Of a stretch of DNA of 64,000 bases, positions 22,591-64,000 are shown piece after piece. Every line of letters starts with the position of its first letter. Within the stretch, counting starts at the first letter, position 1. This DNA is from Sphingomonas sp. (GTDB taxonomy: Bacteria > Pseudomonadota > Alphaproteobacteria > Sphingomonadales > Sphingomonadaceae), in assembly GCF_017744835.1 (NCBI RefSeq), contig NZ_JAGIAM010000002.1, forward strand, positions 248,001 to 312,000, in the 5' to 3' direction. The position numbers and the translations under genes are program-made. Below the pieces are notes generated by a model, which was not told the origin of the DNA, searched no databases, and worked only from the letters and a program-made list of their open reading frames with translations.

Positions 22591-23340
22591 CTAGTACGTC
22601 GTGCGCCCGCCCGAGGTGTCGAAGGTCGACGCCGTGGTGAAGCTGCACTCTTCGCTCGCCATGAACAGGATCATGGCGGCGCTCTCCTCGGCCTCGCCGA
22701 GGCGGCCCATCGGGATCTTCGAGCGCATGTAATCGACCTGGCTCTGCGGGAGCTGGTCGAGGATCGGGCTCTCGAAGGTCGCCGGCGTCAGCCCGTTGAC
22801 GATCACGCCCTTCCCCGCCAGCTCCTTGCCGAGCGACTTGGTGAGGCCGATCACGCCCGCCTTCGACGCCGAATAGGCCGAGGCGTTGGGATTGCCTTCC
22901 TTGCCCGCGACCGACGAGACGTTGACGATGCGGCCATAGCCGTTCGCCAGCATGTGCGGGATCACCGAGCGGCAGCAGTAGAACAGGCCGTTGAGATTGA
23001 TGTCGACGACGCGCTGCCAGCTGTCGATCGGATATTCATGCACGGGCGCAGTCGCGCCGGTGATGCCAGCCGAGCATACCAAGATGTCGAGCCGCCCGAG
23101 CGCCGCCGCGCTTTCGTCCGCGGCGCGCTGGACCGCAGCCGCATCGGCTACGTCGAGCTGCGCGGTGTGAGTCGCGCCCACTTCGGCAGCGGCCTCGGCG
23201 AGTGCGTCAGCGTTGACATCCCACAGCGCGACCTTGCCGCCCTCGGCGACCAGCCGCTTGGCGACCGCGCGCCCCAGGCCGGACGCGCCGCCGGTGATGA
23301 CCGCGGTGCGCCCCGCGAAGCGATCGGCGTAAAGGCTCAC
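22591..23340 (-). CDS. SDR oxidoreductase, candidate 2-keto-3-deoxy-L-rhamnonate 4-dehydrogenase (LRA5-like)
   Basis: SDR motifs (GGASGLGRAVAKRL, YSASKAG); 4-nt overlap with FAH-type hydrolase and adjacency to rhamnonate dehydratase, an arrangement I recall for the Sphingomonas rhamnose pathway. Confidence 0.75.
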   Translation of the reverse strand: MSLYADRFAGRTAVITGGASGLGRAVAKRLVAEGGKVALWDVNADALAEAAAEVGATHTAQLDVADAAAVQRAADESAAALGRLDILVCSAGITGATAPVHEYPIDSWQRVVDINLNGLFYCCRSVIPHMLANGYGRIVNVSSVAGKEGNPNASAYSASKAGVIGLTKSLGKELAGKGVIVNGLTPATFESPILDQLPQSQVDYMRSKIPMGRLGEAEESAAMILFMASEECSFTTASTFDTSGGRTTY

Positions 23341-24194
23341 CCGAGCACCTCGTCACCCAGGTTGCGCCACGCGACGACCTGCTGCTGCTGCTCGCCCAGC
23401 TTGGCGATTCCCAGCCGCATCGTGTCACCGGCCTTGAGGAAGATGGCGTTGGGCTTCTTGCCCTCGCCCACGCCCGGCGGGGTGCCGGTGATCAGCAGGT
23501 CGCCCGGGTAGAGAGTGATGTACTGGCTGACGTAGGCGATGATCTGCTTCACGTCGAAGATCATCGTGCGCGTGTTGCCGGTCTGCATCCGCTCGCCGTT
23601 GACGTCGAGGAACATGTCGAGGTCCTGCGGGTCGCCGACTTCGTCCGGCGTCACCAGCCAGGGGCCGACCGGACAGAAGGTATCGTGGCCCTTGCCCTTG
23701 CTCCACTGCGAGCCGCGCTGCTTCTGGTTGAAGCGCTCGGACACGTCGTTGGCGACCGTGTAGCCGGCGACGTGCGACAGCGCGTCGGCCTCGTCGACGT
23801 AGCGCGCGGTCTTGCCGATCACCACGCCCAGCTCGACTTCCCAGTCGCTATGGGTCGAATCCTTGGGGATCATGACCTCGTCGTTCGGGCCGGTCAGGCT
23901 CGACAGCGCCTTCATGAACATCACCGGCTCGGTCGGAATCGGCAGGTTCGATTCGATCGCGTGATCCTCATAGTTGAGGCCGATCGCGACGATCTTGCCG
24001 ATGCCCTTCACCGGCACGCCGTAGCGCACTTCGCCTTCGACCACGGGAAGCGTCTCCGCGTCGATCGCGCCGAGCGATGCGATCGCCGCGACAGTGAGGT
24101 CGTCGATCTTGCCGGACAAGTCGCGGATCGCGCCCTGGGCGTCGATCAGGCCGGGCTTTTCCTGTCCGCGGGGGCCGTAACGGCAGAATTTCAT
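23337..24194 (-). CDS. Fumarylacetoacetate-hydrolase-family protein, candidate 2,4-diketo-3-deoxy-L-rhamnonate hydrolase (LRA6-like)
   Basis: IVAIGLNYEDHAIESN, DWEVELGVVIGKTAR, ITGTPPGVGEGKKP motifs; operonic context. Confidence 0.8.
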   Translation of the reverse strand: MKFCRYGPRGQEKPGLIDAQGAIRDLSGKIDDLTVAAIASLGAIDAETLPVVEGEVRYGVPVKGIGKIVAIGLNYEDHAIESNLPIPTEPVMFMKALSSLTGPNDEVMIPKDSTHSDWEVELGVVIGKTARYVDEADALSHVAGYTVANDVSERFNQKQRGSQWSKGKGHDTFCPVGPWLVTPDEVGDPQDLDMFLDVNGERMQTGNTRTMIFDVKQIIAYVSQYITLYPGDLLITGTPPGVGEGKKPNAIFLKAGDTMRLGIAKLGEQQQQVVAWRNLGDEVLG

Positions 24195-24212
24195 ATTTGC
24201 TCTTCTCTCGGC

Positions 24213-25409
24213 TCAGTGGGTGTAGGGGCGGTGCATCGGCAGGTCGCGGTTCAATTCGACGCCGAAACCGGGATTGTCGAGGGCGGTGGCCTTCAGGCGC
24301 CCGTTCTGGGGCACCGGCTCGCCGATCAGCTGCGGGTAGAACATCGGCACGACCTCGGTCGGGCCAGGATGCATCATCAGGAACTCGGCGAAGGGCGAGT
24401 TGTGGCGCGTGATCACGAAATGATAGCTGTAGACCGACGAGCCGTGCGGCACGACCAGCTTGCCGCGCGCATCGGCCAGCGCCGAGATCTTGAGCAGCTC
24501 GGTCACGCCGCCGCACCAGCCCACGTCGGGCTGGATGATGTCGCAGCAGTCCATCTCCATGAGCATGCGGAAACCCCAGCGGGTCGCCTCATGCTCGCCG
24601 GTGGTGACCAGCAGGCCCTTGGGGGCGTTGCGCTTCAGCTCGGCATAGCCCCAGTAATCGTCGGGGCTGATTGCCTCCTCGATCCACTTGAGGCCGCACT
24701 CGTTGTAGGCGCGGTGCGCGAGACGCGTCGCGTAGTCGACGTCAAGCGCCATCCAGCAGTCGTACATCAGCCAGAAGTCGTCGCCGACCTTGCTGCGCAT
24801 GTCGGCGAGCAGGTCGATGTTCTTCTGCATCCCCTCCAGCCCCTCGGCCGGGCCGTGGTGGAGCGGCAGCTTGCCGCCGATGAAGCCCAGTTCCTTGGCG
24901 ACGTCGGGGCGTGCGCCGGTAGCGTAGAATTGCAGCTCGTCGCGCACCGCGCCGCCGAGCATCTGATAGACGGGCTCGCCGCGCAGCTTGCCGAGCAGGT
25001 CCCACAGCGCAAGGTCGACGCCCGAGATGGCGTTCACCACCAGCCCCTTGCGGCCGTAATACTGGGTCGAGAAGTACATCTGGTCCCAGATCTTCTCATA
25101 CTCGGTCGGGCTGCGGCCCTCGAGGAAACGGGCGAGGTGCTTCTCGACGATGAACGCCGCGGGCTCGCCGCCGGTGGTCACCGCAAAGCCGATCGTGCCG
25201 TCCTCGGCCTCGATCTCCACCACCAGCGTGCCGAGCACGTTGATGCCGAAGCTCTGCCGCGACTGGCGATATTCGGGATATTTGGACATCGGAGTGGCGA
25301 TGTGATCGTCGATCCAGTGACCACCCCCCTGGTCATGATAGTCGGCGCCGCCACCGCGCACCGTAAAGGCGCGAACTTGCTTGATCCTGGAAAGCCCGGC
25401 TGAAGCCAC
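24213..25409 (-). CDS. rhmD: L-rhamnonate dehydratase (enolase superfamily)
   Basis: [47 protein letters not shown] closely matches remembered RhmD/YfaW sequence; [11 protein letters not shown]; ends RPYTH; GTG start proposed at 25409. Confidence 0.9.
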
Positions 25410-25485
25410 TCTACTCGTCCCCTTCTTCGCGCCCGGTCCCAGATTGCCGGACACCACTTTACAATATGAAAAATGCCAAGCACTC

Positions 25486-25504
25486 GATACCACCATATGA
25501 TATC
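25486..25504. promoter_or_regulatory. Candidate regulon operator site A (GATACCA-CCATA-TGATATC)
   Basis: 19-bp near-palindrome (6 of 7 arm pairs) between divergent rhmD and iclR-type gene. Confidence 0.6.
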
Positions 25505-62726: not shown

Positions 62727-62774
62727 TCCCCTCCCTCTCGCGGTGGTCCGGATATCGGCCCCGCGTTGCCGCAC

Positions 62775-62793
62775 GATATCAGCAATTGAAGCG
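62775..62793. promoter_or_regulatory. Candidate regulon operator site G2 (GATATCA-GCAAT-TGAAGCG)
   Basis: 7 of 8 core positions; nearer the DUF6250-like gene. Confidence 0.35.
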
Positions 62794-62814
62794 GGTTCGC
62801 AATATATGTAGCAT

Positions 62815-62833
62815 CATGCCACAATATGGAACT
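62815..62833. promoter_or_regulatory. Candidate regulon operator site G1 (CATGCCA-CAATA-TGGAACT)
   Basis: Complete core match TGCCA-N5-TGGAA, 27 nt upstream of GH105 gene. Confidence 0.5.
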
Positions 62834-62860
62834 AGCCGTCGTGCGGCAGGGGGAGAGGAC

Positions 62861-64000
62861 ATGACACGCACGCTTGCCTGGGCGCTTGCCGCCCTGCCGA
62901 TCGCCACCGCGTTACCTGCCGCGGCCCAACCCGCCACGTTCCCGACCACCAGCTTCGAGCGTCCGCAGCTCCCGCCGCGGCCCGACACGCGCTTCGATCC
63001 GGCAGCTCTTCCCGATCCGCCGCGCGTGCTGGCGCTGCTCGACTATACCGCGCTCGCCCAGATCGACGCGCTCGCCACCCAGCCGCTCAGGCTCCGCAAC
63101 AACGCGATCCGCGAGCCGAGTGCCAATTGGGTCGCCGCCGCCTTCTACACCGGCGCGGCCCGGCTCGCGCGCAGCTCGAAGCGGCCGGAGATCCTCGCCT
63201 TTCTCCGCGCGGTGGCCGACCATTACAACTACGGCTTCCGCGGCACGACGCCGCGCGCGATGATCAATGCCGACGACCAGGCGATCGGCGAACTCTATCT
63301 CGAGCTCCATGCCCGCATCGGCCAGCCGGGAATGCTCCTGCCGCTCAGGCAGCGGATGGACTACACCTTGCCCTCGCTGACGAAGGAGCCCGCGCCCGCG
63401 CAGCTCACCTGGTGGTGGTGCGACGCGCTCTACATGGCCCCGCCGGTGCTCGCGCGCCTCTCGGCGGTGACAGGCGACCCGGCCTATCTCCGCGCAATGG
63501 ATGTGCAGTGGTGGCGCACTTACGATCGGCTGTGGGATCCCGCGGAAAAGCTTTATTTCCGCGACGAGCGCTTCGTCACGCGCCGCTCGGCGACCGGCAA
63601 GAAGATCTTCTGGTCGCGCGGGATGGGCTGGGTCGCGGGCGGCTATGCGCGCGTGCTCGAATCGATGCCCGCGGACTTCCCCTCGCGCCCGCGCTATATC
63701 GAGGCCTTCCGCACGATGATGACGCGGCTGCTCCCGCTCCAGCGCGATGACGGCATGTGGAGCGCCAGCCTGCTCGATCCCGAAGCGCTGCCTGGGCCCG
63801 AGGCGTCAGGATCGGCTTTCATCACCTATGCCATGGCCTGGGGCATCAACCACGGCATCCTCGATCGCAAGACCTTCCTCCCGCACGTGCTGCGCGGCTG
63901 GGCCGGGCTGACCAATGTGGTCCAGCCGAACGGGCTGCTCGGCCATGTCCAGCGCACCGGCGACCAGCCCGTCCCCACTGCGCCCGGCGATACCGGGCTC
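62861..64000 (+). CDS. Exported unsaturated glucuronyl/rhamnogalacturonyl hydrolase, GH105 (3' truncated by window edge)
   Basis: Not in the ORF track because it has no stop in window; manual translation MTRTLAWALAALPIATALPAAAQP...WWWCDALYMAPPVLARLSAVTGDPAYL...FWSRGMGWVAGGYARVLE...LLPLQRDDGMWSASLLDPE. Confidence 0.88.
   Translation, partial: MTRTLAWALAALPIATALPAAAQPATFPTTSFERPQLPPRPDTRFDPAALPDPPRVLALLDYTALAQIDALATQPLRLRNNAIREPSANWVAAAFYTGAARLARSSKRPEILAFLRAVADHYNYGFRGTTPRAMINADDQAIGELYLELHARIGQPGMLLPLRQRMDYTLPSLTKEPAPAQLTWWWCDALYMAPPVLARLSAVTGDPAYLRAMDVQWWRTYDRLWDPAEKLYFRDERFVTRRSATGKKIFWSRGMGWVAGGYARVLESMPADFPSRPRYIEAFRTMMTRLLPLQRDDGMWSASLLDPEALPGPEASGSAFITYAMAWGINHGILDRKTFLPHVLRGWAGLTNVVQPNGLLGHVQRTGDQPVPTAPGDTGL

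Follow-up and report, generated by a model that had tools for sequence, protein, structure and literature searches.

Loci for the breakdown of rhamnogalacturonan I (RG-I), such as those of Bacteroides with BT4146-type enzymes and the rhamnogalacturonan clusters of Bacillus subtilis, combine PL11, GH28 rhamnogalacturonidase, GH105, GH2 and GH35 enzymes with esterases. Watanabe and Makino (2009, cited in PMC11199699) described the nonphosphorylative (diketo-hydrolase) L-rhamnose pathway in Sphingomonas sp. SKA58, a route that includes the LRA2 lactonase. Rodionova et al. (2013, PMC3870299) reported rhamnose regulons with lldD/lldEFG among Actinomycetales and Rhodobacterales. Here we describe a 64-kb stretch of a Sphingomonas genome (G000:C2:248001-312000, hereafter the window; G+C content 68%), G000 being a draft of 3.92 Mb in 8 contigs. 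With a probability of about 0.78, the window carries an RG-I pectin utilisation island joined to a Sphingomonas-type oxidative rhamnose route, in which lactate is removed by LutABC and an IclR-type regulator exerts co-control. Domains were assigned by Pfam and NCBIfam profile searches with curated cut-offs, structural relatives are the closest PDB chains, and the comparison comprises 80 loci from other genomes plus 10 more from family members.

The rhamnose route and its probable lactate oxidisers

The rhamnose and lactate genes of the island are the following:

22591..23340, minus strand: short-chain dehydrogenase/reductase (SDR), probable L-2-keto-3-deoxyrhamnonate 4-dehydrogenase (LRA5); closest PDB chains 9jve, 6d9y and 9kq1
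23337..24194, minus strand: FAH-family 2,4-diketo-3-deoxy-L-rhamnonate hydrolase (LRA6); NF053535, 549 bits (cut-off 500)
24213..25361, minus strand: L-rhamnonate dehydratase RhmD (LRA3); NF011968, 739 bits (cut-off 393)
25611..26444, plus strand: IclR-family regulator, proposed for rhamnose and RG-I; Pfam IclR_C and HTH_IclR
26469..27233, plus strand: L-rhamnose 1-dehydrogenase (LRA1); NF053807, 454 bits (cut-off 400)
27230..28033, plus strand: first GDSL (CE12-like) esterase, signal peptide visible; Pfam Lipase_GDSL_2
28030..28791, plus strand: LutA-like; Pfam CCG, two stretches
28788..30179, plus strand: LutB-like; LUD_dom, Fer4 and LutB_C
30176..30784, plus strand: LutC-like; LUD_dom
40640..40969, plus strand: L-rhamnose mutarotase RhaM; rhaM, 103 bits

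The plus-strand run IclR-LRA1-CE12-LutA-LutB-LutC shows 4-nt overlaps from LRA1 on, and RhmD, FAH and SDR are transcribed divergently from it. Structural matches accompany the profile hits: RhmD, whose start is uncertain (the open reading frame (ORF) opens at 25496), reaches 726 bits against 2oz3, LRA6 521.5 bits over 284 residues against 8GSR, and LRA1 330 bits against 7b81/7do5. The products of LRA6 would be pyruvate and L-lactate. No specific curated equivalog passes for the SDR. It possesses a YxxxK motif at 156 and basic residues in its SKIP and GGR motifs (numbering relative to 6D9Y is tentative), and its position is syntenic in 70 of the 80 loci; since 6D9Y is named as the closest structure to L-KDRDH (PMC11199699), the SDR is probably LRA5. 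The nearest loci to the window in public genomes are from Sphingomonas, and conservation of the cluster extends over both Sphingomonas and Sphingobium. To note, one record titled Bacillus sp. 2B10 (L019) carries a typical sphingomonad locus, pointing to a mislabelled or contaminated assembly.

The lutA-lutB-lutC trio is complete in its CCG, LUD plus Fer4, and LUD domains. LutB and LutC form the one LUD-domain gene pair of this genome, in which no clear full-length LldD, the flavin mononucleotide lactate dehydrogenase, was found. Lactate oxidisers were counted at the 66 loci with a full core, LRA1 and sufficient flank: the LRA1 neighbourhood contains LutABC at 36, LldD at 11 and neither at 19, and these two unrelated oxidisers never occur there together. 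LldD is located directly 3' of LRA1, with a 4-nt overlap in one case (L009), and reaches 586 and 722 bits against NF033901, above the cut-off of 550. On a tree of RhmD and FAH the three oxidiser states need 12 changes, and at least 3 for LldD are forced by well-supported branches. Comparison of loci thus argues well for L-lactate as the product that is removed, and two unrelated oxidisers alternating beside one pathway amount to natural evidence that lactate must be disposed of. Bare pairs, with no sugar-specific genes near them, are found as divergent FAH-LutABC in two genomes (L006, L049) and as FAH-LldD in one (L075). Among 151 genomes drawn evenly from the family, FAH is present in 20, and a LutB of at least 84% identity in 2, this genome being one of them, both times at most 6 kb from FAH. 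At four loci (L028, L030, L036, L043) a further FAH copy lies beside a BD-FAE-like esterase, and SDR and dehydratase are lacking there. A preliminary description of this DNA had placed lactate disposal in the same operon as the pathway. The alternation beside LRA1 supports the lactate half. LutABC shares its run of 4-nt overlaps with LRA1; the dehydratase, hydrolase and SDR genes are on the opposite strand, outside this run.

Polymer genes and a shared palindrome

Downstream of LutC, the island continues with genes for the uptake and degradation of the polymer:

30927..33986, plus strand: TonB-dependent receptor; TIGR01782, 639 bits
34048..35601, plus strand: GH51 arabinofuranosidase; Alpha-L-AF_C, 186 bits
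35779..37668, plus strand: PL11 rhamnogalacturonan lyase; RGL11_C, 758 bits
37811..39010, plus strand: second GDSL (CE12-like) esterase; Lipase_GDSL_2
39123..40577, plus strand: GH28 rhamnogalacturonidase of BT4146 type, no obvious signal peptide; NF049898, 600 bits (cut-off 500)
40966..43953, plus strand: GH35 beta-galactosidase; Glyco_hydro_35, 269 bits
43950..44900, plus strand: BD-FAE-type esterase; BD-FAE, 69 bits
44912..46048, plus strand: first GH88/GH105-fold hydrolase, signal peptide absent, start position uncertain; Glyco_hydro_88, 337 bits
46048..48555, plus strand: GH115; 426 bits
48693..51059, minus strand: first GH2
51056..52405, minus strand: PL22-like oligogalacturonate lyase (weak); PF14583, 61 bits, C-terminal half only
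52474..54108, plus strand: MFS_2/GPH-like transporter; MFS_2, 158 bits
54108..55079, plus strand: GH43-like, sub-threshold, 26.7 bits (Pfam cut-off 32.2); ORF opens at 54054
55098..57998, plus strand: second GH2
58039..59349, plus strand: FucP/GluP-type transporter of the major facilitator superfamily (MFS); TIGR01272, 266 bits (cut-off 203); fucP model 236 bits, below its cut-off of 280
59353..62055, minus strand: PL26 exo-rhamnogalacturonan lyase family; PcRGLX domains 580 (PcRGLX_3rd), 455 and 92 bits
62070..62774, minus strand: DUF6250 protein with a lipobox-like N-terminus; 228 bits
62861..64000, plus strand: second GH88/GH105-fold hydrolase (GH105b), with signal peptide, running past the window into L003; 220 bits

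The profile searches confirm nearly every gene that the preliminary description had listed in its contiguous inventory of RG-I, side-chain, esterase, uptake, rhamnose and LutABC functions; the list stands except that GH43 is sub-threshold, PL22 is matched in its C-terminal half only, and the lactonase is not in the window. The first GH105 passes the NCBIfam equivalog BglB (NF051900, 482 bits, cut-off 420), so its annotation as an unsaturated rhamnogalacturonyl hydrolase is uncertain. The receptor belongs to the TIGR01782 (Xanthomonas-Caulobacter) type and no SusD was found among the window proteins scanned, so a SusC/SusD pair was not seen. GH105b is the last gene of the island, and the genes beyond it are unrelated.

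Several further features accompany these genes. The DUF6250 lipoprotein-like gene adjoins PL26 here and also in L121, and is a candidate PL26 partner. Within GH115, in frame and just past the signal peptide, lies a REP-like palindrome whose two 31-nt arms are perfect (46113-46196), and similar ones are intergenic at 37697-37779 and 39032-39105. Upstream of the window (L005:1-9741, G000:C2:228001-237741), inspection by eye reveals a second cluster with two pectate-lyase-like proteins and a TonB receptor, together with gluconokinase-like and GntP-like genes. After the island, on the opposite strand, a single open frame of ~7,250 amino acids spans L003:2974-20000 and L004:1-4741 (G000:C2, about 312974-334741).

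The polymer and sugar genes share a regulatory motif. A 15-nt palindrome, TNCCA-N5-TGGNA, occurs in the RhmD-IclR intergenic sequences of 54 other genomes; a position weight matrix (PWM) built from these, with the window left out, identifies the following operator-like sites:

25487..25503: rhmD promoter region; PWM 12.4
25584..25600: IclR promoter region; PWM 15.8
30869..30885: weaker site before the TonB receptor; PWM 8.1
35696..35712: PL11 promoter region; PWM 13.7
40622..40638: rhaM promoter region; PWM 14.1
62816..62832: GH105b promoter region; PWM 11.4

The five window sites scoring at least 10 are all intergenic and within the island, against a Markov expectation of 0, and none falls in the first 22.5 kb of the window. 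A looser pattern yields 32 sites genome-wide, five of them in the island. Outside it, six sites score at least 10; four of these are located 100-200 bp before TonB receptors, one of the four adjoining GH28 and a GH106 rhamnosidase. The rhmD promoter carries the palindrome wherever an IclR gene is adjacent (63 of 63 loci), and so do 14 of 14 held-out loci that lack an adjacent IclR (some of them closely related to one another), compared to 10 of 240 control promoters. These 240 promoters and Markov shuffles reject an artefact of AT-rich intergenic DNA. The position of the palindrome before both polymer and sugar genes predicts one regulon for the two, and the IclR-type regulator, for which no NCBIfam equivalog exceeds its cut-off, is the putative binder. 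Two observations extend beyond the island. In L094 (G000:C6:10001-30000) a TonB receptor with a strong upstream palindrome is near GH28 and GH106 alpha-rhamnosidase genes, probably a second locus for rhamnose glycans within this regulon. In Sphingobium, the palindrome precedes KduI-like genes near LutABC (L032:1033, L058:2306, L063:2323), a hint that this control also covers the catabolism of unsaturated uronates.

Homology and comparison support the receptor, the exported lyases, the esterases and side-chain hydrolases, LRA1, LRA3 and LRA6, a probable LRA5, and a LutABC-like oxidiser in the LRA1 run. In the proposed mechanism, the TonB receptor would import RG-I fragments, PL11 and PL26 would cut the backbone, and a GH105-type enzyme would split the unsaturated galacturonate-rhamnose unit. 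Rhamnose would then pass through mutarotation (RhaM) and oxidation (LRA1), and an LRA2 ortholog whose gene is on another contig would open the lactone. RhmD would dehydrate the resulting acid, LRA5 oxidise it and LRA6 cleave it to pyruvate and L-lactate, which LutABC would convert to pyruvate. The galacturonate half would be handled by UxaC and KduI encoded elsewhere in the genome. An IclR-type regulator would co-control the polymer and sugar genes of the island, and receptor and pectinase loci elsewhere. Such a scheme provides a testable link between a plant-wall polymer and central metabolism in sphingomonads.

Displaced steps and rival readings

The route had been called complete-looking, which does not hold for the locus: no LRA2 lactonase was found in the 64-kb window. 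An ortholog is encoded at G000:C3:11371-12267, one of four amidohydrolase-2 genes in the genome. Its product is 56-73% identical to that of the gene following LRA5 in 75 of 77 core-cluster loci (the other two are short contigs) and nests inside the LRA2 clade on a tree; the genome therefore holds LRA2 away from the cluster. As both ends of C2 are more than 100 kb from the island, this displacement is not a simple contig break. Nor is it supported that a single locus takes one polymer all the way from the outer membrane into central metabolism: UxaC and KduI are on C7, a second KduI on C3, and the alpha-rhamnosidase GH106 on C6. What stands of the earlier interpretation is rhamnose as the sugar, the lactate half, and the tie between polymer and sugar genes, now seen as the palindrome shared by PL11, GH105b, RhaM and RhmD.

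Several points weigh against the proposed reading. LRA2 is on a different contig from the island, and the TonB receptor could import a glycan other than RG-I. IclR is linked to the palindrome by proximity only, because 14 loci carry the motif without an adjacent IclR gene. LutB is just under its curated cut-off (TIGR00273, 441.7 versus 444.8 bits), and lactate coupling is common but not obligatory, given the 19 of 66 loci with neither oxidiser near LRA1. The last two points would also fit iron-sulphur proteins that oxidise something else, glycolate or imported lactate, and stand beside LRA1 incidentally; this is improbable in view of the mutual exclusion of LutABC and LldD in the same neighbourhood, beside a lactate-making hydrolase, and of the stand-alone FAH-LutABC pairs. 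Somewhat less improbable, yet still unlikely, is that RG-I and rhamnose genes are adjacent without being co-regulated. The island is divided into several transcription units that run both ways, some of them separated by terminator-like hairpins, and in 27 of 75 relatives the fetched flank contains none of these RG-I or side-chain genes; against this, PL11, GH105b, rhaM, rhmD and IclR are all preceded by the same palindrome, which in some relatives also precedes TonB receptor, GPH, RhaM or KduI genes.

The sugar itself might be L-fucose. The diketo intermediate is common to the routes for rhamnose and fucose (PMC11199699), so FAH alone cannot discriminate between them, and one MFS transporter of the island is FucP-like. 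However, RhmD and LRA1 exceed the cut-offs of rhamnose-specific NCBIfam equivalogs, RhaM is encoded in the island, and a separate fucose cluster is present on C4 at 213-223 kb (L100, G000:C4:204001-224000). The latter encodes an L-fuconate dehydratase (4ip4, 703 bits; 2hne, 580 bits), an L-2-keto-3-deoxyfuconate (L-KDF) 4-dehydrogenase (8y11, 325 bits), an aldo-keto reductase, a mutarotase-like gene and a lactonase-family gene. We thus reject a fucose role for the dehydratase, SDR and FAH trio as very improbable and retain rhamnose.

Besides FucC and FucF, the C4 cluster shows neither a FAH hydrolase nor a close FucG. The only close hydrolase in the genome is the FAH of the island; the next one, at C1:1168738, is 28% identical and an unlikely fucose hydrolase. 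Combined with the common diketo intermediate, this predicts a shared last step. LRA6 and LutABC might then form a lactate exit common to rhamnose and fucose, on whose hydrolase and oxidiser the C4 cluster depends, a proposal to which we give slightly less than even odds; alternatively, the C4 route may use an aldolase. If the exit is shared, the bare FAH-LutABC and FAH-LldD pairs of relatives would represent an exit module without sugar-specific genes, and the hydrolase missing from the fucose cluster would reflect a dependency between two sugar pathways. The stand-alone FAH loci L006, L049 and L028 were considered as fucose clusters and discarded, as no fucose genes are near them.

Comparison with known systems

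A search of the literature for an RG-I locus in Sphingomonas, or for LutABC together with this rhamnose route, returned only lldD/lldEFG in other rhamnose regulons. Those regulons (PMC3870299) resemble the island in including lactate dehydrogenase genes, but they rely on phosphorylative RhaEW and on AraC, DeoR or LacI regulators, whereas the island has an oxidative route and a proposed regulator of IclR type. IclR-type rhamnose control with a palindrome regulon would be of a kind not named in that survey. The nonphosphorylating L-fucose route 3 (FucC/FucF/FucG, PMC11199699) shares its diketo intermediate and its products with the island route; it is represented in this genome by the separate C4 cluster, without a close FucG. 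The SKA58 pathway is among the closest known systems: LRA1, LRA3 and LRA6 are recognised in the island by curated matches and a probable LRA5 by synteny and nearest structure. Here, LRA2 is on another contig, and the cluster is extended by LutABC and RG-I genes.

Compared to the RG-I loci of Bacteroides and Bacillus subtilis, the island has the same PL11, GH28, GH105, GH2, GH35 and esterase complement, its backbone lyases being PL11 and PL26, but differs in its TIGR01782-type TonB receptor without a visible SusD partner and in the oxidative rhamnose catabolism attached to it. We regard the combination as an informative variant of known parts. What the preliminary description saw is real and sensible, and this genome shows a displaced lactonase in a conserved sphingomonad cluster.

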